From Cellulomonas sp. ES6 (lineage in GTDB: Bacteria > Actinomycetota > Actinomycetes > Actinomycetales > Cellulomonadaceae): a stretch of DNA of 64,000 bases. Positions 5,034-30,915 of this stretch are shown one piece after another. A model generated the notes under the pieces. The model had not been told where the DNA came from and ran no database searches. It worked only from the letters and a program-made list of their open reading frames with translations. Position 1 is the stretch's first letter. Each line of letters starts with the position of its first letter. The DNA lies in NCBI RefSeq assembly GCF_030053835.1, contig NZ_CP125655.1, forward strand, positions 2,108,001 through 2,172,000. The letters run 5' to 3'. The position numbers were made by a program, and so were the translations under genes.

Positions 5034-6440
5034 ATGACGCAGACCACACGGGTGCCCGGCGGCGACCAGCCGGAGCTGCGGCGCACGATCGGCCGCACGG
5101 TGCTGCTGCTGTTCGTCGTCGGGGACATCCTCGGCGCCGGCATCTACGCGCTGACGGGGACGGTCGCGGAGCAGGTCGGCGGCGCGATCTGGCTGCCGTT
5201 CCTGCTGGCGTTCGCCCTGGCCACGCTGACCGCGACGGCCTACGCGGAGCTCGTCGCGCGCTACCCGAAGGCCGCCGGCGCCGCCCTGTACGCGAACCGC
5301 GCCTTCCGGCGGCCGTTCCTGACGTTCCTCGTGGCGTTCGCCGTCATGATGTCGGGCATCACCAGCGCCTCCGCGGCGGCGCGGGCGTTCGGCGGGGACT
5401 ACCTGGCGGAGCTGCTGCCGTTCGGGGTGCCGACCCTCGTGGCCGCGTGGGTGTTCCTCGGGCTCATCACGGTCGTCAACGTGCTCGGGGTCTCCGAGTC
5501 GGTGCGCGTGAACGTCGTGCTCACGCTGGTCGAGGCGAGCGGGCTGCTCGTCATCATCGGCATCGGGGTGTGGGCGCTCGCGCACGGCGACGGCGACCCG
5601 TCCCGCGCCCTCGACCTGCACACCGACGGCCCCGCGTGGATGGGCGTGCTCGGCGGCACCGCGCTCGCCTTCTACGCCCTGCTCGGGTTCGAGGACTCGG
5701 TGAACCTGGCGGAGGAGGCGCGGCACCCGCGGCGCGACTTCCCGCGGGCGCTGTTCGGCGGGCTCGCGGTGGCCGGGGCCATCTACCTGGCGGTGGCGTT
5801 CACGGCGTCGATGCTGGTGGAGACGGACGTGCTGGTCGGCTCCACCGGGCCGCTGCTCGAGGTGGTGCGCGTGGCCGGGCTGGCGTTCCCGCCGTGGCTG
5901 TTCGCGCTCATCGCGCTGCTCGCCGTCATGAACACCGCGCTGATCAACATGATGATGGCGTCCCGCCTGGTGTACGGGATGTCCCGCGAGGGGATCGTCC
6001 CCGCCGCGCTCGGCCGCGTGCACTCCCGGCGCCGCACCCCCGTGGTCGCGATCGCGTTCACGGTGGTCCTCGCGCTGACGCTCACCGCGACCGGCGACCT
6101 CGGCGGCCTGGCCGACACCACCGTCCTGCTCCTGCTGCTCGTGTTCGCGGTGGTCAACGTCGCCGTGCTCGTCCTGCGCCGCCGCCCCGCGGACGACGAC
6201 GAGACCGGCACGGTGGACGGCGACCGCGAGCGCTCGTTCCGCGCGCCGACGTGGGCGCCCGTCGTCGGGGCGGTCGTGTCGCTGGCGCTGGCGTCGCCGC
6301 TGACGGGCCGCGAGGGGGCGGTGTACCTGCGGGCCGCCGTGCTGCTGGGGATCGGCGTGGTGCTGTACGTCGTCAACCGGCTGCTGACGGGCGGGACCGG
6401 CGCGACCGCGGACGAGGACGCCACCGCCGCGACCGGCTGA
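5034..6440 (+). CDS. APC-superfamily amino-acid permease
   Basis: Integral membrane transporter of 468 residues with about 12 hydrophobic helices. The N-terminal GDILGAGIYALTGTVAEQVG matches the substrate-binding helix 1 of the amino acid-polyamine-organocation superfamily, and GFEDSVNLAEEARHPRRDFP matches its conserved helix 6-7 region. The ATG follows a strong AGGGGGAGG ribosome site. Substrate is not predictable; cationic amino acids or polyamines are plausible. Monocistronic. Confidence 0.88.
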   Translation: MTQTTRVPGGDQPELRRTIGRTVLLLFVVGDILGAGIYALTGTVAEQVGGAIWLPFLLAFALATLTATAYAELVARYPKAAGAALYANRAFRRPFLTFLVAFAVMMSGITSASAAARAFGGDYLAELLPFGVPTLVAAWVFLGLITVVNVLGVSESVRVNVVLTLVEASGLLVIIGIGVWALAHGDGDPSRALDLHTDGPAWMGVLGGTALAFYALLGFEDSVNLAEEARHPRRDFPRALFGGLAVAGAIYLAVAFTASMLVETDVLVGSTGPLLEVVRVAGLAFPPWLFALIALLAVMNTALINMMMASRLVYGMSREGIVPAALGRVHSRRRTPVVAIAFTVVLALTLTATGDLGGLADTTVLLLLLVFAVVNVAVLVLRRRPADDDETGTVDGDRERSFRAPTWAPVVGAVVSLALASPLTGREGAVYLRAAVLLGIGVVLYVVNRLLTGGTGATADEDATAATG

Positions 6441-6471: not shown

Positions 6472-6897
6472 TCACGCGAACCCGAGCAGCGCGGCGACCT
6501 CGGGCTCCCGTTCGACCCAGCCGGGTGCGTCGTGGAGCACCACCCGGGTCTCGAACTCCGCCGCGGTGATCCCGGGCGTCAGGGTGACGTGCATCGTGAG
6601 CGCCGCGTCGACCGCGACCAGCAGCCGGCCGTCGTCCGGCACGACCGACCGCAACCACGCCGCGAGCTCGCCCCACCCGGGCCACAGGGCGTCGCACGAG
6701 AAGGAACGCCGGTCCCGGAAGTAGTTGATCTGGTAGACCCCGGCGGGACCCACCACCTGGACGTTGACCGCGGAGGCTCGTGGCGGCCGGAGCCGCCGTA
6801 CCCGCGCGTCCGGCCACCGCCGACGTGCCACCTCGGCGAACCGGTCGGCGGTGAGCGGGATCGTCCCCTCGCACGCGACGAGCAGGTTGTTGCTCAC
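6472..6897 (-). CDS. Putative immunity protein, second tandem copy
   Basis: A 141-residue protein of no recognised family, starting at GTG 6897, which overlaps the upstream stop by four bases. It is a clear paralogue of the preceding gene: both contain a hydrophobic QI[ND]Y strand followed by an R-rich turn, then a D-A-L segment, an [AV]AW[LV]R[SA]VVPD block, and an identical-style C-terminus (PGW-E--EPEVAALLG). Position immediately behind a REase-fold toxin gene in a four-gene overlapping operon makes an immunity role likely. This is inference from gene order; the family was not recognised. Confidence 0.65.
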   Translation of the reverse strand: MSNNLLVACEGTIPLTADRFAEVARRRWPDARVRRLRPPRASAVNVQVVGPAGVYQINYFRDRRSFSCDALWPGWGELAAWLRSVVPDDGRLLVAVDAALTMHVTLTPGITAAEFETRVVLHDAPGWVEREPEVAALLGFA

Positions 6898-7343
6898 GGC
6901 GACCGGCCGCCACGGCCGAGCAGCGCGGCGACCTCGGGGTCGCGCGCCTCCCACCCGGGCGTCCCGTGGTCCACGACAGCGGAGGCGACGTCCGTGGGCC
7001 GCATGCCCGGGAGCAGCTCCACGTGGAGGGTCATCGCGGCGTCGAAGGCGATGAGTCGACGGCCCTGGTCCGGCACGACGGCGCGGACCCACGCGGCCAC
7101 CTCCGGCCACCGGTCGGGCAGCGCGTCGGTGCTGATCGCGGTGCGGGTCCGCAGGTAGTCGATCTGGAACCCCGACCCGTCCGGCGGATCGATCTGCACC
7201 TCGACCTCCACGTGGAACGGCGGGCGACGGCGGACCACGGTCGCCGCAGACCCCCACCGGGCGACGGCGGCCCGCGCCAGCGCCTCGAACGACACCGGCA
7301 GCGGCGCCGCGGTCGTCCCCCGGATGTACAGACGGTTGCTCAC
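6894..7343 (-). CDS. Putative immunity protein, first tandem copy
   Basis: A 149-residue protein (start GTG 7343, overlapping the toxin stop by four bases). It begins MSNRLYIRGTTAAPLPVSFE and ends with PEVAALLGRGGRSP, and is paralogous to the next gene along most of its length. No signal peptide, membrane helix or known catalytic motif is seen, so it is probably cytosolic. As the gene directly following the toxin it is the prime candidate for the cognate immunity protein. The downstream copy may protect against related toxins or a displaced ancestral effector. Function is inferred from context only. Confidence 0.68.
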   Translation of the reverse strand: MSNRLYIRGTTAAPLPVSFEALARAAVARWGSAATVVRRRPPFHVEVEVQIDPPDGSGFQIDYLRTRTAISTDALPDRWPEVAAWVRAVVPDQGRRLIAFDAAMTLHVELLPGMRPTDVASAVVDHGTPGWEARDPEVAALLGRGGRSP

Positions 7344-8713
7344 GAGCGGACCACCACCTCCACGTCCAGACCGTCTCCGACCAGCGACCGGGCGCGCGCC
7401 AGCAGGTGCTCCGCCGCCTCCGGGGTCGACGTCACGATCCGCAGCCGCTCCACCGGGTTGTCGCCTCCCCGGATCACGGCGGCGTACCGCTCCACCTCGT
7501 CGTCGAACCCCGCGAGCAGGTCGTCCCGCAGGAAGTCCGGCACGCTCCCCTCCCACATCGAGGCGCCCGGTCGCTCGACGAACTTCGCCTCGACCGCCAC
7601 CACGGCGTCCGGGTCGATGTGCACACCGTCCGCCCAGATCCTCGTGTCGCCGCTCCGGAGGCGGAACTCCTCCGGTCCGGCCCAGGTCCGCTGGTAGTCG
7701 GCCCACCCCTCGACGCGGGTGACCGCACGGACGTCGCCGGCGGCCCGCAGCGCGTCCAGCCAGCGCTCGCCGGCGGCGACGCGGTCCACGCCGTCGGCGA
7801 TGTCCTGGAGGTACCGCGCCATCCGCGCGGCGCCCGCGACGCCGGCGGTCGACCCGCCCGTGACCAGGCTCGTCGCGAGGTCGGGCGCGTGGCCGCCCCA
7901 CCACCGGCCGGGGTGGTCGGCGAGCCCGTCGGTGTCGAGCAGCACCCGGCCGGTGCCGAACGGGTCCTCGCCCGCCGCGTGGTACAGGTCGACCGTCGAG
8001 GTCCCGAGCTCCGCCCACGACGACGCCCAGCCGGGGCCGTCGACGACCGCGCGCAGCGAGCCGTACCGCCACAGCGCGCCGGCGGTGGAGGTCAGCCAGT
8101 CGGCGACGCCGCGCAGGAAGTCGCCGGGGTGGAGTCCGCCGTCCGGGACGCCGGCGGAGAGCCCGTCGAGCACGCCCGCCGCGGCGGCCTCCGACGCGAC
8201 GACCTCCGCGCGGGCGGAGGCGAGCACCTGCTCGGCGAGCGCCCGGTGCGACGCCCCGGGGTCGACGTCGGCGACGCGGGGCCGCCAGCGGGTCGCACCC
8301 GGGGTGGACGAGGGGGACGACGGCGTGCCGAGCACCGGCGGGTCCACGTCGGCGCGGCGGCGCCACGCCGCGCTCAGGTCCTCGCCCTGCGCCCACAGGG
8401 CGACGGCGACCTCGGCGCGGGCGTGCGCCCACCGGACCACGGCGGCGTGCTGCCGCAGGACCCCGCCGGCGACGTCGGTGGCGCCCGCGACCGTGTCGAG
8501 CACCTCGACCAGCCGCGAGCGGTGCGCCGCCCAGGCCTCGGACGCGGCGCCGTGCCAGCGGTCGCACGCGGCGCGTGCCGTGTCGGCCGACGCGGCCGCG
8601 AGCGCCCGGCGCCGCCCGTCGACCTCCGCCGCCGAGCCCTCGAGCGCGTCGGGGTCGGTCGGGACCAGCGCCCGCGCGTCGGTGGACGTCGCGAGGGTCG
8701 CGCCGCCGATCAC
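7340..8713 (-). CDS. WXG-type polymorphic toxin with C-terminal REase-fold nuclease domain
   Basis: A 457-residue putative contact-dependent effector. The N-terminal 140 residues are helical and alanine-rich with WHG and EAW motifs, resembling WXG100/LXG trafficking domains of type VII secretion substrates; there is no Sec signal. The C-terminal region (about 325-457) has a D-x12-E-x-K arrangement (D362 in ADGVHID, E375 and K377 in VEAKFV), the signature of restriction-endonuclease-fold (Tox-REase-2-like) nucleases. Starting at GTG 8713 gives a 4-base overlap with the upstream WXG-like gene, and its stop overlaps the first immunity gene. DNA cleavage of competitors is the likely activity, by family analogy. 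Confidence 0.78.
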   Translation of the reverse strand: MIGGATLATSTDARALVPTDPDALEGSAAEVDGRRRALAAASADTARAACDRWHGAASEAWAAHRSRLVEVLDTVAGATDVAGGVLRQHAAVVRWAHARAEVAVALWAQGEDLSAAWRRRADVDPPVLGTPSSPSSTPGATRWRPRVADVDPGASHRALAEQVLASARAEVVASEAAAAGVLDGLSAGVPDGGLHPGDFLRGVADWLTSTAGALWRYGSLRAVVDGPGWASSWAELGTSTVDLYHAAGEDPFGTGRVLLDTDGLADHPGRWWGGHAPDLATSLVTGGSTAGVAGAARMARYLQDIADGVDRVAAGERWLDALRAAGDVRAVTRVEGWADYQRTWAGPEEFRLRSGDTRIWADGVHIDPDAVVAVEAKFVERPGASMWEGSVPDFLRDDLLAGFDDEVERYAAVIRGGDNPVERLRIVTSTPEAAEHLLARARSLVGDGLDVEVVVRS

Positions 8714-9018
8714 GGGCGGGCCGGCAGACCGGCGAGGTGGTCGCGGGCCATCGCGTCGGCCTCGTCGTAGGCGGACGCGGCGCCCCTGATCTGCTCGCCG
8801 GCGTGGTCGACCTCCGCCGCGAGCGCCGTCAGGAGGTAGCGGTAGCGCGCGTCGAACCGCGCCCCGGCGGAGGTCAGCGGGCCCGCGCGCCACGCCTCCG
8901 GCCCGGGGACCACCGGGGCGGCGCCCGTGGCCGCCACCCGGTCGGCGACGCGCAGCACGTCGTTCCCGGTGCGGCGGAGCTCCGCCGTGTCGACCTCGAA
9001 CAGGCTGGCGTCAGCCAC
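8710..9018 (-). CDS. WXG100-like small helical protein
   Basis: A 102-residue, cysteine-free, all-helical protein starting MADASLFEVDTAELRRTG. Size, composition and a central W (EAWRAG, near residue 43) resemble WXG100/ESX-type partners that pair with type VII effectors. It is the first gene of the four-gene toxin operon. GTG 9018 is preceded by AGAGAGGTGG, a good ribosome site. Probable role: partner or chaperone for export of the toxin. No secretion ATPase is present in the window. Confidence 0.68.
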   Translation of the reverse strand: MADASLFEVDTAELRRTGNDVLRVADRVAATGAAPVVPGPEAWRAGPLTSAGARFDARYRYLLTALAAEVDHAGEQIRGAASAYDEADAMARDHLAGLPARP

Positions 9019-9127: not shown

Positions 9128-9940
9128 ATGACGCCGAAGGTGCCCAAGGCCGTGTACGAGGCGGAGCTGTTCCGGCTGCAGTCGGAGCTGGTGACCCTCC
9201 AGGAGTGGGTGCGCGCCACCGGGGCCCGCGTGGTGGTCGTGTTCGAGGGCCGCGATGCCGCCGGCAAGGGCGGCACCATCAAGCGCATCACCGAGTACCT
9301 GAGCCCCCGGGTCGCCCGCATCGCCGCGCTGCCCGCGCCCACGGAGCGCGAGCGCGGCCAGTGGTACTTCCAGCGCTACATCGCGCACCTGCCGGCGCGC
9401 GGCGAGATCGTGCTGTTCGACCGGTCCTGGTACAACCGCGCCGGGGTCGAGACGGTCATGGGGTTCTGCACACCGCAGGAGCGCGCCCGGTTCCTGCAGC
9501 AGACGCCGGGGTTCGAGCAGATGCTCATCGACGACGGCATCCTGCTGCGCAAGTACTGGTTCTCGGTGTCGGACGCGGAGCAGCTCCGGCGCTTCCGGTC
9601 CCGGCGGAACGACCCGGTGCGCCGGTGGAAGCTCAGCCCGATGGACCTGGAGTCGATCGCGCGCTGGGAGGAGTACTCCCGGGCGAAGGACACGATGTTC
9701 GCGCACACCGACCTGCCGACCAGCCCGTGGTACGTCGTGGAGTCCGACCTGAAGCGGAACGCGCGGCTCAACATGATCGCGCACCTGCTGTCGACCATCC
9801 CCTACCAGGAGGTGCCCCACGACCCGGTGGTGCTGCCGGAGCGCCCACCGGCGTCCGAGGAGTACGTGCGGCCGCCCCGCGAGCTGTCCACGTACGTCCC
9901 GGACCACTGCGCGTCGCTGCTCGGGGACCCGGAGGCGTAA
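9128..9940 (+). CDS. ppk2: Polyphosphate kinase 2
   Basis: Cytosolic PPK2-family kinase of 270 residues that uses polyphosphate to phosphorylate nucleoside diphosphates (or the reverse). The Walker A loop GRDAAGKGG is at residues 41-49, and VLFDRSWYNRAGVE carries the Walker B aspartate and the DRSWYNR signature. A lid module with KYWFSVSDAEQLRRF and the WKLSPMDLES segment follow. Length matches single-domain class I PPK2 enzymes. The -10 hexamer TACCGT (9116-9121) ends six bases before the ATG, suggesting a leaderless mRNA. Confidence 0.94.
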   Translation: MTPKVPKAVYEAELFRLQSELVTLQEWVRATGARVVVVFEGRDAAGKGGTIKRITEYLSPRVARIAALPAPTERERGQWYFQRYIAHLPARGEIVLFDRSWYNRAGVETVMGFCTPQERARFLQQTPGFEQMLIDDGILLRKYWFSVSDAEQLRRFRSRRNDPVRRWKLSPMDLESIARWEEYSRAKDTMFAHTDLPTSPWYVVESDLKRNARLNMIAHLLSTIPYQEVPHDPVVLPERPPASEEYVRPPRELSTYVPDHCASLLGDPEA

Positions 9941-17879: not shown

Positions 17880-20800
17880 TCACTCCCGTCGCAGGCGGCG
17901 GGACACCACCAGCAGGGCGCCGAGCAGCAGCGCGCCCAGCCCGCCCAGCAGCAGCCACCCGGCGTCCGAGCCGGTGCGGGCCAGCTCGCCCGCGGGCGCG
18001 GCGCTCACCGCGGAGTCGCTCGCCGGCGGCACGCCGGTGCCGTGCGGGTCGTCCGGCTGCACGACCGCCGTGTTGCCCACCGTGGCGCCGGGCGTGGTCA
18101 CGTCCGTCACCACGAGGACCGTGGCGGTCCCGCCCGCCGCGAGCGGCCCGTCGTGGCGGCAGGTGACGACCTGGCCCTCGACGGTGCAGTCGAACCCGTC
18201 ACCCGTGGCGGAGACGTACCGCAGGCCGGCCTCGAGCTCGTCGCTCACGGTGAACCCGTCCCGCACGTCCCGGGTGCCGGCGGACAGCACCGTGACCTCC
18301 CACGTGATGCGCCCGGCCACCCGGTCGGCGACCGCCTTGCGCACCGCGAGCCTGCTCTCGTCGGCCGGCACGAACCCGAAGTCCAGCGTCAGGTCCTCCT
18401 GGCCGCCGGTCAGGGCGGACGAGTCCGCGGTCCACGTCGAGGAGTCCCGCGCCCGGTCGGACCCGGCCCCCTCGAGCGTCGGCGCGTACGGCCGCAGCGC
18501 GTCCGCGGACGCCAGCCGGTCGACCGTCACCCGGTACCGCCCGGGCAGCAGGTCCGCGAACACGTACCGGCCGTCCGCGTCGGTGGTCACCGGCCGCACG
18601 GGCCGGCCGAACGCGTCCAGCACGTCCGACCCGTCCGGGCCGGTCAGCCGCAGCACGACCCCCGGGATGCCCGGCTCGCCCGGGTCCTGCACGCCGTCGC
18701 CGTCGGTGTCGACCCAGACGAGGTCCCCGACGCGGACGGTGCGCTCGACCAGGCCCGCGTCGACCGTCGGGTCGACGTAGTCGGCCGTGAGCCCGTCCGC
18801 GGGGACCACCGGACGCACGCGCGGTGCGTCGGTGCCGAGCCGCACCACCCGGGTCCAGCCGTCGGCGCCGGCGCCCGAGTCGCCCGCCCCGTCGCCCACG
18901 AGCGACCGCGTGAACACGTACCGGGCGGCGGTGGCGTCGTCGAGCACGAACCGCACCCGGTACTCCCCCGCCGGCAGCAGGTCGACGTGCCAGCGGCCGT
19001 CCGGGCCGGTGACGGTGGTCGCGACGGGCTCGTCCGACCCGGCCGGCACCACCTGGACGGTCACGCCCGGCACCCCGGGCTCGTCCGCGCCCTGCCGGCC
19101 GTCGCGGTCCCGGTCGACCCACACGAGGTCGCCGAGCGCGTACGTGCGGTCGACGGCGACGCCGGCGCGGTTGGGCTCGAGCGTCTCGTGCACCAGCCCG
19201 GACGCCGCGACGCTCGCCGTGCTGACGACCATCGTGTTCCACGCGGGCGCGTCCGCGTCGGCGGCGGCCCGGTCGTACCCGGTGGCGGACCGGGTGCGGA
19301 AGGTCACCGTGACGGTCTCCCCCGGCTGGAGGGGCTCGGCGGCGAGGTCGACGTCCACGCGCAGCCCGCGCACCGCAGCGAGGTCGTCGACCTGGTCGGC
19401 GGGCGTCCACACGTCGGCGGCGCACCCGTCGCCGGCGGGGTCCGCCGACCGCGGGTCGCCGGTGAACCGGCACGTCCGCCCGTCGAGCAGGTACGACACC
19501 GCGCTGCTGCCGGCGGCGGGGACGCCCTCGACGTGGAGGTCGCCCAGGTACTCGGGCGCCCAGACGCTGCCGCGCGGCGACCCGCTCTGCGAGCGCGACG
19601 TCCCCGTGTCACCGGGGTGCGGCAGCACGTCGACGAGCGAGATCGCGGCGGTGGGCAGGTTGCCGGTGTTGGTCACCCGCATCCGCCAGGTCTCCGTCCC
19701 GCCGGGGGCCGTCCGCACCAGGCAGGGGTTCCGGTAGAACCCGCCGTCGTCGGTGCAGGTGCCGCCGACCGTGCTCACCACGCCCGTGGGCCGCCCGCCG
19801 GGGGCGACGTCCTCCGCCACGTCCTTGACGCGCAGGTAGGTGGCCATCGCGACGACCTCCACCGTCGCGGTCGCCTCGCGCCGCAGGTCGTCCGCGGCGG
19901 TCAGCACGAACCCGTTGGTGAGCGTCGTGCCCGCGGCGACGCCCGGCCGCACGGCGAGCGGCACCGTGACGAGCACGCGCTCCCCGGGCAGCAGGCGGGT
20001 GCCGGGCGGGAAGGTGACGCGCAGCGCGGTGCCGTCGAGCGTCACCGTCGGCGTGGCGGACGCCGCGGCAGCGGTCGCCGGCGTGACCTGCACGCTCGCG
20101 GCGCCGTACGCGAGCTCGTCGTAGACGAGCAGGGCGCCCTCGGCGTCGGCCGGCAGCACGTCGGTCAGCACGGGGTCGACCAGCGGGGCCGTGCCCGTGC
20201 TGGTCGCGGTCAGCGTGAACGGGATGACCGCGCCCGGGCCGGTGGTCGTGGTGACCGGCGACTTGGTCACCGTGGCGTCCGGGGTGCCGTCGGTGACGGT
20301 GTACGGCGCGGTGACCGGGTCCAGGACCACGGGCGACGGCGTGTGCTCGCCCTGCACGGAGCCGGTGAGCACGTTCGTGACGGTGCCCGCCGGGACCTCC
20401 GCGCCGGTGCTGCGCAGCGTGCTGCGCGGCGCCAGCGTGACCAGGACCGTCGGGCCCTCGAACCCGCCCACGACGCGGTTGGCGAACCACCGGCCCTCGG
20501 GCGCGGTGAACGTGACGCGCAGGCCGGTCACGTCCGACGGGTCCACGCCGTCCGGCAGGTCGCCCGCGCCCGCGGGGAGCGCCGGGGAGGCCGCGGCGGT
20601 GCCGGGGGCCAGCTCCGACGTCACCGCCGGGGTCCACGCCCCGTCCACGCGGTACTCGACGGCGGCGGTGAAGCCGGTCCCGTCGGCGGCGGTCACGCCG
20701 GACAGCGCCTCCACGCCCACGAGGTCCACCGCGTCCCAGAACTCCGGCGTCGTGTCCTCGAGCACGTACTGCCACGGGCGGCTCACCGCCGCGTCGCTCG

Positions 20801-23753
20801 TGCGCCGCGCGCTCAGCGCGAGCCGCACGGTGCGGTCCTCGGCGGCGTACCGGGACACCGTGCCGGGGTCCACCGACTTGGCGAGCGCGCCGTCGAGCGG
20901 CTGCAGCGCCTCGGGGTACAGCACGGTGTCGGCGCGCGCGGCGTCGTCCGGCGTGCCGGGGCCGAGGTCGCCGCGCAGCGTGTTGACGACGGTCGTCCAC
21001 GCCGGGCCGTCCGCGGTCCCGAGCACCGGCGAGCCGGAGCGGGTGGTGGCCCGCAGCTCCGTGTCGGCGACCACGGTGAGCACGGCGCCGTCCGGCAGCG
21101 TGCCGTCCGCGCGCGCCTCGACCTGCGCCACGTCGGCGAGCTCGGCCCGGGTCAGCGCGGCGACCGCCGCGGCCGACGTCAGCGTCCGCAGCGGCGTGCC
21201 GTCCGCGTCGCGCAGCACGACGGTGAGGTCCCGCGTGCCCTCCGGGGCGGTGACCGCCAGGCGCGTCACGTCCACCAGGTCGAACGCGTTGGCGGGCACC
21301 TGCGGGTCCGGGTCGACCAGGCGCAGTGTCTCCACGGGGATGCCGGTGACGTTCTGCACCCGCATGGTGAGGCGGTTGGCGGGCCGGTCGCCGTCCTCGG
21401 CCGTCGCGTTGCCGACGGGGACGAGCGCCGCGGCGTCGCGCCACTGCTTGCTCGCGTCGACGCGCCGGATGTCCAGGGGCGTGCCGCCCGGTCCGGGCGT
21501 CGTGGTCGCGGTGTCGCCCGAGGTGCCGGTGAGGCCCTCGCCCACGCCGGTGCCCTCACCGGTGGTCGAGGCGGTGTTGGTCAGGGCGGTCCCCGGGGCC
21601 TGCGCCTCGGTCAGCGCCATCACGAGCGTGACGACGGGTCGGAAGCTGCCGGTGGTCGGCAGGGACGCGCCGGCGGTCAGCGGCGTGTACACGACGCGGA
21701 CCCCGTCGGCGCCCGCGGGCACCGCCAGGTCGAGCAGCGCGGAGGCGTCGGACGTCGGCCCCGCGAGCGAGGTCCACGCCCCGCCGACCCGGACCAGCAC
21801 CTCGGCCTGCGACCCGCCGGGGACCGCGACGGACCCGAGGCGGTCGAGCGCGGCGACGCCCCACAGGCTGGACCCGGCGGTGCCGTCCGCGACGTCCTCG
21901 ATCACGAGCCGCCCCACGGGCACCGTCGTGTCGGCGGAGATGCCGCCGGTCAGCCGGGCGACGACCTCCTGACCCACGGCGCCCGTGACCTGCTCGCCGC
22001 CGACCGCCTGCGTCAGCGTCTTCGCGGTCGTCGTGACGACGCGGCGCGGCACGACCGTGAGGGTCGCGGTCGCGGTGCGCTCCGCCGCGGCCGTGCCGTC
22101 GGAGGCCGAGCCGCCCACGGCCACCTGGTTCGGGAAGCCGCGGGTGGTGTCCCAGCCGGCGTCCGTGGCGACGCGCAGCGGCAGCACCGCCCGCGCGCCC
22201 GGCGGCATGGTGCCGCGGTACTCCACCTGGACGCCCGTGACGACCGCACCGGCCGGCACCTGCGGCCAGCCGACCGTGCCGGCCGAGCCACCCGCCGGGG
22301 CGGTGACCGTCGTGGTGAGCGGCAGGCCCGGGCCCGTGCCGGTGAACGTCACGTCGGCCTCGACGGCGCCCTCCGGCCAGTCGGCGCCCGCGCCGGTGCC
22401 CGTGCCGTCGGACCCGAGGCCCAGCAGCGCGAGCTTGCCGTCGGCCGTGGTCCCGAACGGGTCGGTGCCGGTGGCCGGCTCGCGCACGGTCAGGGTGGCG
22501 AGCGTGGTGTTGGAGGAGTTGGCGGCGCTCAGCGCGACGACCGCCTCCGCGCCGGCCACGACCTGCGCCTGCGCGCGGCCCTCGACGGTCTTGCCGGCGG
22601 TGACCTCGACCGTCACGGGGTTGAGCTGCACCGTCGCGGAGGCCGTGCCGGTGGCGTCGCCGGCCGCGGTCGCGACCGATCCCGCGGCCGTGTTGGGGAC
22701 CTGCGTCACGGCGTCGCGGTCCGCGGTGCCGTTCTGGCCGAGCCGGAGCGCGACCGCGCCGGAGGCCCCCGGCGGGAGGGCCTCGGCGTCGTCGCCCGTG
22801 AAGCGCAGGACGACGCCCGTGACGGCCGCGAGGTCCACCGCGCCGGTGTCGACGGGGGTGCCGGGCGCGAACGGCCCGACCGTGGTGCTGCCCGCCGCGG
22901 TCACCAGCTCGACCGTCAGGCCGGTGGCACCGTCCGGCGCCGTCCAGTCACCGAAGCCGCGCAGGTCCAGCGGGGTGCCGGGCCCGAACGCGGGCGCGGT
23001 GCCGGCGGCCGGGTCGGTCAGGGTGAGCGCCGTCGCCGCGACGGGGGACCGGTTCTCCACCCCCAGCGCGAGGGTGAGGTCCGCCCCGTCGCCGGCCACC
23101 TGGTCCGACGGGGTCCAGCGCTTGGTGACGCCGACGGCCGGGTCCACCGGGACGACGACCGTCACGGTCGCGTCGTCGGACACCGGGTCCGCGTTGGCGG
23201 CGACGGCGTCGGCGGTGTTCACCACGGACGCGCCGTCCCACGAGCGGTCGGTGCCGGCGGGCAGCGTGGTCTGCACGAGCACGGACAGGCTCTGGCCCGC
23301 GGCGATGCCCTGCGCACCGGGCCGGCCGGCGTCGGTCTCGCGGAAGGCCACGCGCACCTCGCTGCCGTCCACGGCCACGTCGGCGGACCCCGTGCGCTGC
23401 CCCTGCACCGACACGCCGTCCGGCTCGATGACGAACGGCGCGGGGACCGCGTCCGTCAGCACCGCGTCGACGCACATCGTGACGATGGACTCGCACGTGA
23501 CGTCGATCGTCCAGGTCACGCGGTCCCCGGGGCGCGCCTCGGTCGGCACGACCGACTTCACGACGCTCAGCGCCGCCCGCGGCTCCTCGGCCGCCGCCGG
23601 GGCGCCCGCCGCCGTGGCCGCCGCCGGCGCCCCGGCCACGGCGGCGACGAGCGCCAGCACGACCGTCAGCCCCAGCGCCCACCCGCGGGCCCACCCGCGC
23701 GACCACCGTCGCGCCCACCGTCCGGCGTGCCCTGCACCCTGCCTGTTCTCCAC
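17880..23753 (-). CDS. Giant sortase-anchored surface protein with DUF11 and SdrD-B-like repeats
   Basis: A 1957-residue cell-wall protein. A signal peptide with a twin-Arg-like basic start and hydrophobic core (about 20-45) is followed by many beta-rich repeat modules of the DUF11/conserved-repeat type (about 55-1500). Two SdrD-B-like domains then follow: LGDLVWVDRDRDGRQGADEP (about 1540) and VGDLVWVDTDGDGVQDPGEP (about 1675), both with calcium-binding D-x-D-x-D-G loops. A further DUF11 module precedes the C-terminal sorting signal LARTG (1924-1928), hydrophobic helix and RRLRRE tail. LAxTG signals suit class E sortases. GTG start follows GAGGGA. Divergent from a membrane-tethered ECF sigma factor, its likely regulator. 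Adhesin or S-layer-like role is inferred. Confidence 0.9.
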   Translation of the reverse strand: MENRQGAGHAGRWARRWSRGWARGWALGLTVVLALVAAVAGAPAAATAAGAPAAAEEPRAALSVVKSVVPTEARPGDRVTWTIDVTCESIVTMCVDAVLTDAVPAPFVIEPDGVSVQGQRTGSADVAVDGSEVRVAFRETDAGRPGAQGIAAGQSLSVLVQTTLPAGTDRSWDGASVVNTADAVAANADPVSDDATVTVVVPVDPAVGVTKRWTPSDQVAGDGADLTLALGVENRSPVAATALTLTDPAAGTAPAFGPGTPLDLRGFGDWTAPDGATGLTVELVTAAGSTTVGPFAPGTPVDTGAVDLAAVTGVVLRFTGDDAEALPPGASGAVALRLGQNGTADRDAVTQVPNTAAGSVATAAGDATGTASATVQLNPVTVEVTAGKTVEGRAQAQVVAGAEAVVALSAANSSNTTLATLTVREPATGTDPFGTTADGKLALLGLGSDGTGTGAGADWPEGAVEADVTFTGTGPGLPLTTTVTAPAGGSAGTVGWPQVPAGAVVTGVQVEYRGTMPPGARAVLPLRVATDAGWDTTRGFPNQVAVGGSASDGTAAAERTATATLTVVPRRVVTTTAKTLTQAVGGEQVTGAVGQEVVARLTGGISADTTVPVGRLVIEDVADGTAGSSLWGVAALDRLGSVAVPGGSQAEVLVRVGGAWTSLAGPTSDASALLDLAVPAGADGVRVVYTPLTAGASLPTTGSFRPVVTLVMALTEAQAPGTALTNTASTTGEGTGVGEGLTGTSGDTATTTPGPGGTPLDIRRVDASKQWRDAAALVPVGNATAEDGDRPANRLTMRVQNVTGIPVETLRLVDPDPQVPANAFDLVDVTRLAVTAPEGTRDLTVVLRDADGTPLRTLTSAAAVAALTRAELADVAQVEARADGTLPDGAVLTVVADTELRATTRSGSPVLGTADGPAWTTVVNTLRGDLGPGTPDDAARADTVLYPEALQPLDGALAKSVDPGTVSRYAAEDRTVRLALSARRTSDAAVSRPWQYVLEDTTPEFWDAVDLVGVEALSGVTAADGTGFTAAVEYRVDGAWTPAVTSELAPGTAAASPALPAGAGDLPDGVDPSDVTGLRVTFTAPEGRWFANRVVGGFEGPTVLVTLAPRSTLRSTGAEVPAGTVTNVLTGSVQGEHTPSPVVLDPVTAPYTVTDGTPDATVTKSPVTTTTGPGAVIPFTLTATSTGTAPLVDPVLTDVLPADAEGALLVYDELAYGAASVQVTPATAAAASATPTVTLDGTALRVTFPPGTRLLPGERVLVTVPLAVRPGVAAGTTLTNGFVLTAADDLRREATATVEVVAMATYLRVKDVAEDVAPGGRPTGVVSTVGGTCTDDGGFYRNPCLVRTAPGGTETWRMRVTNTGNLPTAAISLVDVLPHPGDTGTSRSQSGSPRGSVWAPEYLGDLHVEGVPAAGSSAVSYLLDGRTCRFTGDPRSADPAGDGCAADVWTPADQVDDLAAVRGLRVDVDLAAEPLQPGETVTVTFRTRSATGYDRAAADADAPAWNTMVVSTASVAASGLVHETLEPNRAGVAVDRTYALGDLVWVDRDRDGRQGADEPGVPGVTVQVVPAGSDEPVATTVTGPDGRWHVDLLPAGEYRVRFVLDDATAARYVFTRSLVGDGAGDSGAGADGWTRVVRLGTDAPRVRPVVPADGLTADYVDPTVDAGLVERTVRVGDLVWVDTDGDGVQDPGEPGIPGVVLRLTGPDGSDVLDAFGRPVRPVTTDADGRYVFADLLPGRYRVTVDRLASADALRPYAPTLEGAGSDRARDSSTWTADSSALTGGQEDLTLDFGFVPADESRLAVRKAVADRVAGRITWEVTVLSAGTRDVRDGFTVSDELEAGLRYVSATGDGFDCTVEGQVVTCRHDGPLAAGGTATVLVVTDVTTPGATVGNTAVVQPDDPHGTGVPPASDSAVSAAPAGELARTGSDAGWLLLGGLGALLLGALLVVSRRLRRE

Positions 23754-23968: not shown

Positions 23969-25804
23969 ATGGACGTCGTGCTGCCCGCGACGGAGAGGTC
24001 CGACACCGAGCTCGCGCAGCGTGTGCGCGACGGCGACCACGACGCGTACGGCGAGCTCTGGCGACGGCACGCGGACGCGGGCCGTGCGGCGGCCCGCCGG
24101 ATCACCGACCGGTTCGACCCCGACGACCTCGTGGCCGAGGCGTTCGCGCGGATCCTCGAGGCGCTCGGCGCGGGCCGCGGCCCCGACGGGGCGTTCCGGC
24201 CCTACCTGTACGCGACGATCCGCAACGTCGCCATGTCGTGGACCGCCCGCGCGGGCGCGACGACCAGCCTCGACGGGGTCGACGGGCCGGTGGACGAGCC
24301 GCCCGTCGCCCAGCGCCTCGCCGACGAGGCCCTGCTCGCCCGCGCCTACGCGTCGCTGCCGCCGGAGTGGGCCGAGGTGCTCTGGTACACCGAGCTCGAG
24401 GAGCTGACGCCGGCTGAGGTCGCACCGCTGATCGGCCTGCAGCCGAACGCCGCTGCGGCCCTGGCCTACCGCGCCCGGGAGGGGCTGCGGCGCGCCTGGC
24501 TGCAGGCCCACGTGACCCGGCTGCCCGAGCGCGCCGACTGCCGCTGGGTGGCCGAGCGCGTCGGCGACCACCACCGCGGGGCGCTGTCCCCGCGCGCCCG
24601 ACGCCGGTTCGACCGGCACCTCGAGACCTGCGACGACTGCCCGGTCCTCGTGGCCGAGGTCGGCACGGAGGCCGAGATCCTGCTCCGGGCGCGGCTGCGC
24701 GCGCTGCTCTGGCCGCTGCCCGCCCTCGCGGTCGCCCTCCCCGGCGGGCCGCTCGCCGCCGGCGCGGCAGGCACCCCCGCCCCGCGCCGGCTGCGCCCGT
24801 CACGGCGGTCGCTCGCCACCGCGGCCGCTGCCGCTGCGGCAGTGCTCGCGCTCGCCGCCGGTGCGCTCGGGCTGGCACGCCTCGGCGGCGGTGACGGACC
24901 CGCCCCGCAGGCGGCGGACGTCACGGCGCCCGAGGCGCCCGCCCCGGGCCCGCAGCCGCCCGGCCCGGCCACCCCGGTGGACGACCCGGTGCCGGACGGC
25001 GCGGAGCAGCTCCCCCCGGACGACGACGCCACGCCGCCCCGGAGCCCCGTCCGGGAGGGCGACGGGACCCGCGGCGGCACGACGGCCGCACCCGCGGGGG
25101 ACCTCCCGCCCGTCCCGGCGGCGCCGCCGGGACCCGCACCCGTGCACCCCGGCACCCCGGCCGGGCCCGGGACGCCGGTGGACCCGGAGGTGCCGGTCGA
25201 CCCCGAGGTGCCCGTCGACCCGGAGGTGCCCGTCGACCCCGAGGGCCCGGCCGCCCCGACCGTCGTCGACGTGCTCGCCGAGCCGCACTACCTGCCCGCG
25301 CTCTCCGGGACGGCGGTGCCCGGTGCGGTGGTCGAGCTCCGGACGGCCGACGGCGCCGTCCTCGGCGCCACCAGGGCCGACGAGGCGGGCGCGTGGCGGG
25401 CCGCCGTGCAGGCGGACGTGGACGCGGGCACCGCGGTCACCCTGGTGGTCGTGCAGCGGGTGGACGACCGCGAGTCCCCGGTGGCCGGCCCGTTCGGCCC
25501 GTACACCGCGGAGGCGCCGGAGCTGCTGTCGCCGGCCGACGGCGAGGTGGTCGTCCCGGTCGCGCTGGACGGCGACGGGGTGGCGGACGACCTCGAGGTG
25601 CGGTTCGGCGGCACCGCCGGGTTGCGCGTCGAGGCCGCCGTCGACGGCGTGCGCACGGGCCGGACGCACGTGCTCGCGGACGCCCCGCTGGTGCGGACCG
25701 TGCACGGGCTGACCCCGGGCGCGCACACGTTCGCCGTCCGGTACGCCGACCCCGACCGGGGGCTCGTCGGCGCCTGGGCCCGGGTCGCGTTCACGGTGCC
25801 GTGA
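23969..25804 (+). CDS. ECF sigma factor fused to anti-sigma zinc finger, membrane helix and extracellular domain
   Basis: A 611-residue single-chain sigma/anti-sigma receptor. Region 2 (about 12-90; DPDDLVAEAFARILEAL) and region 4 (about 125-180; YTELEELTPAEVAPLIGL) give the sigma factor. Next comes an H-x3-C-x2-C zinc finger (H217, C221, C224; HLETCDDC), as in anti-sigma ZAS domains. One membrane helix (about 282-305) leads to a Pro-rich extracellular stalk with four tandem VDPE[VG]P hexamers (about 405-430) and Ig-like beta domains (about 435-611). ATG follows AGGAGG. Similar C-terminally extended actinobacterial ECFs are known. Likely released or activated by an envelope signal to transcribe neighbouring surface genes. 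Confidence 0.85.
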   Translation: MDVVLPATERSDTELAQRVRDGDHDAYGELWRRHADAGRAAARRITDRFDPDDLVAEAFARILEALGAGRGPDGAFRPYLYATIRNVAMSWTARAGATTSLDGVDGPVDEPPVAQRLADEALLARAYASLPPEWAEVLWYTELEELTPAEVAPLIGLQPNAAAALAYRAREGLRRAWLQAHVTRLPERADCRWVAERVGDHHRGALSPRARRRFDRHLETCDDCPVLVAEVGTEAEILLRARLRALLWPLPALAVALPGGPLAAGAAGTPAPRRLRPSRRSLATAAAAAAAVLALAAGALGLARLGGGDGPAPQAADVTAPEAPAPGPQPPGPATPVDDPVPDGAEQLPPDDDATPPRSPVREGDGTRGGTTAAPAGDLPPVPAAPPGPAPVHPGTPAGPGTPVDPEVPVDPEVPVDPEVPVDPEGPAAPTVVDVLAEPHYLPALSGTAVPGAVVELRTADGAVLGATRADEAGAWRAAVQADVDAGTAVTLVVVQRVDDRESPVAGPFGPYTAEAPELLSPADGEVVVPVALDGDGVADDLEVRFGGTAGLRVEAAVDGVRTGRTHVLADAPLVRTVHGLTPGAHTFAVRYADPDRGLVGAWARVAFTVP

Positions 25805-30244: not shown

Positions 30245-30514
30245 ATGCGAGCCATGCGGACGATGACAGCGACGACGATCTCGCGGGGGTTCGCCGCGGC
30301 GCTCGACGCGGTGGAGCACGGCGACGTCATCACGATCACGCGCGGCGGCCACCCCGTGGCCGAGCTGCGTCCCGTCACGACGGCGACGGGACGATCGCTC
30401 GCGCGCGCGCTCGACGCGGCCGACGCCGCCCTCGACGAGGCGTTCGAGTCCGACGTGCACGCGGCGACGGACCTGCTCACCCCCGACGAGGGCGACCCGT
30501 GGCGCGACGCCTGA
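30245..30514 (+). CDS. Phd/YefM-type antitoxin
   Basis: An 89-residue antitoxin. The N-terminal DNA-binding part reads MTATTISRGFAAALDAVEHG with the hallmark DVITITRGGHPVAELRPV strand of Phd/YefM proteins; the C-terminal helix would wrap the toxin. Three in-frame ATGs (30245, 30254, 30262) are possible starts; 30245 is nearest to the -10 element. It overlaps the PIN-domain toxin gene by 16 bases and probably autoregulates through the tandem repeat in its promoter. Confidence 0.85.
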   Translation: MRAMRTMTATTISRGFAAALDAVEHGDVITITRGGHPVAELRPVTTATGRSLARALDAADAALDEAFESDVHAATDLLTPDEGDPWRDA

Positions 30515-30915
30515 TCCTCGACACGGGCGCCCTGATCGCGTTCGAGCGCGGCACGCTCGACCGGGCGGCCCTCGCCGACGACGACCTGGCCGTCGCCGCC
30601 GTCACGATCGCCGAGTTCCGCACGGGCGTCGAGCTCGCCGACTCCCCCGCGCGCGCGGCCTCCCGGCGCGCGGTCCTGGACGCGGTCACCGCGACGATCC
30701 CGGTGCTCGACTACACCGAGGCCACCGCGGCCCTGCACGGCCGCCTGCTCGCGCACACGCGCCGGACCGGCCGGCGCCGCAGGGCGCACGACCTGATCAT
30801 CGCGGCCACCGCCGTCGAGCACGACCGCACCGTGCTCTCGACGGACGCCCGCGCCCGGTTCGGGGAGCTGCCGGCCGTCCGCTACCTCGCCGCGGCGGAC
30901 GCAGCCGCCCGCTGA
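30499..30915 (+). CDS. vapC: PIN-domain ribonuclease toxin (VapC type)
   Basis: A 138-residue PIN nuclease. Acidic metal-binding residues are in the expected places: ILDTGALIAFERG (first Asp, residue 8), AEFRTGVELAD (Glu), HDLIIAATAV (Asp) and LSTDARARF (last Asp). VapC toxins cleave specific tRNA or rRNA sites. The GTG start lies within the antitoxin gene, so the pair is translationally coupled. It is paired with a Phd-type rather than a VapB-type antitoxin, a common mix. Confidence 0.88.
   Translation: MARRLILDTGALIAFERGTLDRAALADDDLAVAAVTIAEFRTGVELADSPARAASRRAVLDAVTATIPVLDYTEATAALHGRLLAHTRRTGRRRRAHDLIIAATAVEHDRTVLSTDARARFGELPAVRYLAAADAAAR

Follow-up and report, generated by a model that had tools for sequence, protein, structure and literature searches.

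A probable T7SS-delivered toxin operon in Cellulomonas and a candidate immunity family for Tox-REase-2 toxins

We analyzed a window of 64,000 nucleotides from Cellulomonas sp. ES6 (NCBI RefSeq assembly GCF_030053835.1, contig NZ_CP125655.1, positions 2,108,001 to 2,172,000) that carries, on its minus strand at 6472-9018, a cassette of four genes, here called A, B, C and D in their order of transcription. The operon is best read, with a probability that we put at about 0.82, as an antibacterial polymorphic-toxin cassette delivered by the type VII secretion system (T7SS), in which A would target the toxin, B would be a nuclease, and C and D would be immunity proteins of an uncatalogued family. 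The architecture seems ordinary for T7SS toxin operons; the novelty would lie in the immunity family, apparently the partner that Tox-REase-2 had been lacking.

In the mechanism that we propose, A (EspC/PPE-like, with a YxxxD motif) would form a pair with the helical N-terminal part of B, which bears the WXG motif, and bring it to an ESX-like T7SS encoded elsewhere in the same genome. The C-terminal Tox-REase-2 nuclease of B (D362, E375-x-K377) would then attack nucleic acid in a neighboring cell, and C and D, as cytoplasmic immunity proteins, would bind the toxin domain; of the two, C would more likely be the cognate partner, and D may protect against variants of the toxin.

The toxin and its partner family

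Toxin B belongs to Pfam family PF15646, Tox-REase-2 (E 9.9e-13, 48.9 bits, gathering score 27.6), and its N-terminus matches T7SS_signal (PF21725, E 9.5e-11, above the curated cut-off). An original prediction, made from the letters of the window, had guessed a “Tox-REase” (restriction endonuclease) toxin with a WXG-like N-terminus and a D362-x12-E375-x-K377 core; the hidden Markov model search now supplies the exact family, the N-terminus carries W53-H-G55 along with the signal domain, and the core residues lie exactly where they had been placed. W53, G55, D362, G363, E375 and K377 are invariant in all six aligned proteins (B included). Across 41 Tox-REase-2 domains, K377 is present in every one, D362, G363 and T428 in 40 each, and E349 in 39, with position 375 occupied by E in 28 and by D in 13. 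The published signature reads “E, DG, [DE]xK, T, W” (Zhang et al., 2012; PMC3482391), and B matches its first four elements through E349, D362-G363, E375-A-K377 and T428, in an assignment of columns that is our own; no W column reaches 70% in the 41-domain alignment, and the place of this last W is not fixed by the source text.

A protein search with B (best 8000 candidates scored) returned four close relatives, one of them named “restriction endonuclease fold toxin-2 domain-containing protein [Cellulomonas sp. C5510],” and no relative of B was found among PDB sequences. Judged by its sequence, protein P0006 shows the polymorphic pattern, its N-terminus kept nearly identical to that of B (95.8% in residues 1-120, 98.6% in residues 121-330) and its toxin domain diverged (63.4%); P0005 follows the opposite trend (92% and 92% in the same two segments, 98% in the toxin domain). 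As a separate observation, the toxin frame of one compared genome, G016 (L024:5156-7441), lacks the stop where it normally lies and continues through the next family gene in another frame; this may reflect a longer toxin, a frameshift or an error of assembly.

C and D both follow the toxin, as the two immunity candidates had been predicted to do, and are additionally paralogues of one another (47% identity over 143 columns). No Pfam family scored above its cut-off against C, D and 18 relatives, and no NCBIfam family did so against C, D and 8 relatives; D gave a single sub-threshold match (PEPCK, E 0.083). Neither C nor D matched a family in PADLOC or had a significant relative among PDB sequences. 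The table of Zhang et al. (2012; PMC3482391) enters “-” for the immunity partner of Tox-REase-2; in the open-access literature searched, “Tox-REase-2” led to that paper alone and “PF15646” to none. The earlier suggestion that the immunity family may be undescribed thus holds both against these searches and against the table of the 2012 survey. An AlphaFold2 (AF2) model of C (predicted local distance difference test, pLDDT, 94.2; predicted template modeling score, pTM, 0.88) predicts with confidence a beta-alpha-beta4-alpha arrangement that has no clear structural relative; TBP-like/helix-grip folds and the CdiI of 4g6v gave no clear-cut match.

Used as a lone protein-search query, C found one relative; the wider family search gave 151 matches from the best 8000 scored candidates, and none of the 120 listed bears a functional name. 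Among 148 related genomes, C had matches in 7 and Tox-REase-2 in 11, all of them in the genus of the window, and in a wider draw 394 genomes of the class gave 5, among them that of the window, and 295 genomes of one distant genus, suggested to be Streptomyces, gave 34. Profile-profile comparison joins the four subfamilies. The C/D-type and Streptomyces-type profiles align over 121 columns at a probability of 94%, the lowest probability of any pair is 46%, and the real score was reached by none of 50 column shuffles in any of the six comparisons. Against the single partner gene of G016, C scores 77.5 bits and D 57.2 bits; because C outscores D here and also adjoins the toxin, we regard C as the likelier cognate partner. 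Two long forms of 340-361 amino acids (L025:3794-4816 and L026:5724-6809) were also seen, in which the part beyond the immunity-like domain, at the C-terminus, is apparently common to both and matches no Pfam family above cut-off.

The partner family is coupled to the toxin domain. The gene downstream was inspected at 44 of the 53 Tox-REase-2 matches found, and leave-one-out testing places a C/D-family gene immediately downstream of the toxin domain at 42 of these 44, many of the tests having close relatives still in the training set. Toxin-domain and partner distances are correlated (r 0.93, 41 pairs, 0 of 2000 permutations), shared ancestry still being included in this figure, and the correlation holds both inside the genus of the window (r 0.86, 11 pairs) and outside it (r 0.93, 30 pairs; 0 of 2000 permutations each). 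Within the genus, the family occurs in 11/11 genomes with Tox-REase-2 and in 9/70 others, a count that is conservative because G804, of the same species as the window, was scored as toxin-less there.

A natural swap in G072 separates the toxin domain from its delivery module. The N-terminus of this toxin is PrsW-like, as in G052 (528 bits), and its toxin domain is window-like, scoring 96 bits to the window, 33-34 bits to G043 and G063, and nothing to G052. (The PrsW label derives from a protein of G043 with a similar N-terminus, which scores above the Pfam cut-off for PrsW; the scanned Tox-REase-2 toxins did not.) The G072 partner gene resembles those of two genomes with window-type toxin domains, G016 (40 bits) and G071 (48 bits), and has no match among the partners of other PrsW-type toxins. 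Because of this swap, we conclude that the partner travels with the toxin domain and not with the delivery module.

Copies of the family also occur apart from this toxin. The 81 genomes of the genus hold 29 C/D-family genes, 16 at a Tox-REase-2 locus, one beside an apparent toxin remnant (G075) and 12 elsewhere. Three of these 12 sit in arrays behind another toxin-like gene: in G010 a family copy is preceded by a different T7SS_signal toxin and by two small genes that are paralogues, and in G043 two copies (one without a clear open reading frame, ORF) come after a PrsW protein, a gene with a below-cut-off likeness to SUKH and a pair of small genes related to each other. At least one other toxin-less copy (G052:C21) looks broken.

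This distribution bears on the chief alternative, which we judge improbable: that C and D are chaperones or export adaptors of the toxin domain, such as the EsaE-type partners, instead of immunity proteins. Proximity to the toxin and co-variation with it would also be expected of a chaperone bound to the toxin domain. Against this, the family goes with one toxin family whether the delivery N-terminus is T7SS_signal or the unrelated PrsW-like type; copies without a toxin are maintained singly or in arrays, a pattern that immunity genes should show and dedicated chaperones should not; and the role of partner is already one that fits gene A. We find it fairly probable that C and D represent an undescribed immunity superfamily of small beta-alpha-beta4-alpha proteins, the dedicated and near-universal antidote to Tox-REase-2 across Actinobacteria, inherited with the toxin domain whether delivery is by the T7SS or by a PrsW-like route, and that the toxin-less copies would protect against the toxins of rivals.

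A second recurrent family of some 180-200 amino acids stands in tandem pairs behind other toxins (L023:5046-6419 and L137:3069-4324, their likeness judged by eye). The one member scanned has no Pfam match, and this is possibly another uncatalogued immunity family.

Delivery by the T7SS and the points against

The original prediction called the first gene product WXG-like, and this did not hold: the protein of gene A has no W-x-G motif. Its likeness is instead to PPE (E 0.0075) and EspC (E 0.0091), both below the Pfam cut-offs, and its C-terminus carries Y84DEAD, a YxxxD motif. YxxxD/E is an ESX-type secretion motif, and the G016 homologue of A has YLEVE. When the window and 12 relatives were compared by phmmer, homologues of A were present at four of the 13 loci (the window, G048, G016 and G010), the same four whose toxin has a T7SS_signal N-terminus. 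Some 0.26 Mb from the operon, the same genome carries an ESX-like locus with an S8 peptidase, EccB (E 2.4e-66), EccD and two WXG100 proteins recognized by Pfam, as well as an EccC-like ORF with three P-loops recognized by eye. Of the 81 genomes of the genus, 31 have EccB, 35 have T7SS_signal and 20 have both (Fisher p 0.002).

These findings also speak to a marginal alternative, under which the four genes would form a toxin-antitoxin module acting inside the cell and not an exported weapon. The four-base overlap between the toxin and small partner genes and the distance to the T7SS locus would suit such a module; the T7SS_signal domain, the WXG motif and the upstream YxxxD partner would not, nor would the near-identical N-terminus of P0006 beside a diverged toxin domain, and an ESX signal domain is not known to us from any type II toxin-antitoxin system.

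Several observations weigh against the operon as an exported toxin with its own immunity genes, in addition to the limits given above with the leave-one-out count and the distance correlation. The REase fold of B is a prediction drawn solely from the family name and the conserved residues. The leave-one-out tests missed two of the 44 loci (L017 and L022), the G072 partner has no match to C itself (BLAST at 1e-3), and 12 of the 29 C/D-family genes of the genus are not beside a detected Tox-REase-2-type toxin. The T7SS locus is unlinked to the toxin operon, and the G010 homologue of A is without YxxxD. EccB was detected in just 20 of the 35 T7SS_signal genomes of the genus, and G010 has a T7SS_signal toxin and no detected EccB; given the Fisher value, this overlap and this counter-example, the association is real but not strict.

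The operon, its site and other features of the window

The coordinates of the four same-strand genes and the three GTGA junctions that had been predicted were all read in the sequence (Table 1), and in its main points the original prediction is borne out. The same-species genome G804 carries the operon with A, C and D 100% identical and B at 98.7%, and G048 carries it at 92-94%; both keep the C-D tandem. Because these two genomes carry it too, the operon is beyond chance. That it would be a complete interbacterial weapon cassette, as first proposed, appears well supported by comparative genomics. The least probable alternative is a decayed or defective cassette, with B inactive or the immunity genes alone in use; there are apparent toxin remnants beside family members elsewhere in the genus (a G075 ORF with phmmer similarity to B and no PF15646 match), but B is not truncated and retains its catalytic-type residues, and two other genomes preserve the entire operon at 92-100% identity.

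The operon lies between an amino-acid permease gene and a polyphosphate kinase 2 (PPK2) gene, a site at which it is present in three genomes (the window, G804 and G048). In G016 (L148) and G034 (L150) the permease is within approximately 70 bases of PPK2 with no operon between them, i.e., an empty site, and G016 holds its own related operon on another contig. Five further genomes have the permease 0.8-1.4 kb from PPK2, also without A or B, and at the other 20 of the 30 PPK2 loci no permease appeared in the 1.5 kb of sequence compared. Most simply, this pattern is read as an insertion of the cassette at the permease/PPK2 site.

Table 1. Positions of the operon genes, the domains of B and the flanking genes, numbered within the window
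Feature	Position	Strand	Description
Gene A	8710-9018	-	102 amino acids; weakly EspC/PPE-like, probable T7SS targeting partner of toxin B
Gene B	7340-8713	-	457 amino acids; polymorphic toxin (Pfam T7SS_signal + Tox-REase-2)
Gene C	6894-7343	-	149 amino acids; probable cognate immunity protein, new family
Gene D	6472-6897	-	141 amino acids; tandem paralogue of C, second immunity candidate
T7SS_signal domain of B, with W53-H-G55	8177-8698 (genome 2116177-2116698)	-	PF21725
Tox-REase-2 domain of B, residues 338-457	7343-7702	-	PF15646 and conservation; E349, D362-G363, E375-x-K377, T428
GTGA overlap A/B (stop/start codon)	8710-8713	-	Read in sequence
GTGA overlap B/C (stop/start codon)	7340-7343	-	Read in sequence
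GTGA overlap C/D (stop/start codon)	6894-6897	-	Read in sequence
Amino-acid permease gene	5034-6440	+	One flank of the operon
PPK2 gene	9128-9940	+	Other flank of the operon

Three other features of the window may be recorded. A Phd/YefM-like antitoxin (E 5.2e-6, just under cut-off) is paired with a PIN-domain protein (E 1.3e-9) at 30245-30915 (+), probably as an ordinary type II toxin-antitoxin module. An ORF of 1957 amino acids at 17880-23753 (-) has C-terminal SdrD_B and DUF11 repeats and is probably a large surface protein, and one of 611 amino acids at 23969-25804 (+) combines Sigma-70 region 2, a zinc finger (zf-HC2) and a bacterial Ig domain, a combination that struck us as unusual.

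Comparison with known systems

Since this type of system is itself well known, the surprise here is moderate. The C/D family would nevertheless fill the immunity gap of Tox-REase-2 and give many Actinobacterial proteins a role that can be tested, and the natural tandem paralogues, together with the natural swap of a toxin domain, allow a direct test of immunity specificity. Toxin B resembles the Tox-REase-2 toxins as listed in the table of PMC3482391 in its HMM family, its C-terminal placement of the domain, its occurrence in Actinobacteria and its predicted T7SS (WXG) delivery; unlike the “-” entered there for the partner, we find a consistent partner family that includes both C and D. The order of a small targeting factor, a toxin (there with an LXG-type N-terminus) and a small immunity ORF recalls AaEAS of Amycolatopsis azurea, as described in PMC12691689, and the tandem immunity paralogues recall esaG, tsaI and tipC, as described in PMC9484751. 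The present operon differs from these systems in its toxin domain, in its apparently uncatalogued immunity family and in that its toxin and T7SS genes are unlinked. Unlike the catalogued immunity families (the Imm families, SUKH and others), no tested member of the C/D family rises above any Pfam or NCBIfam cut-off; like them, the family has the size, the position and the operon logic of immunity genes, and the array of G043 that holds toxin-less copies also contains a gene resembling SUKH below the cut-off.
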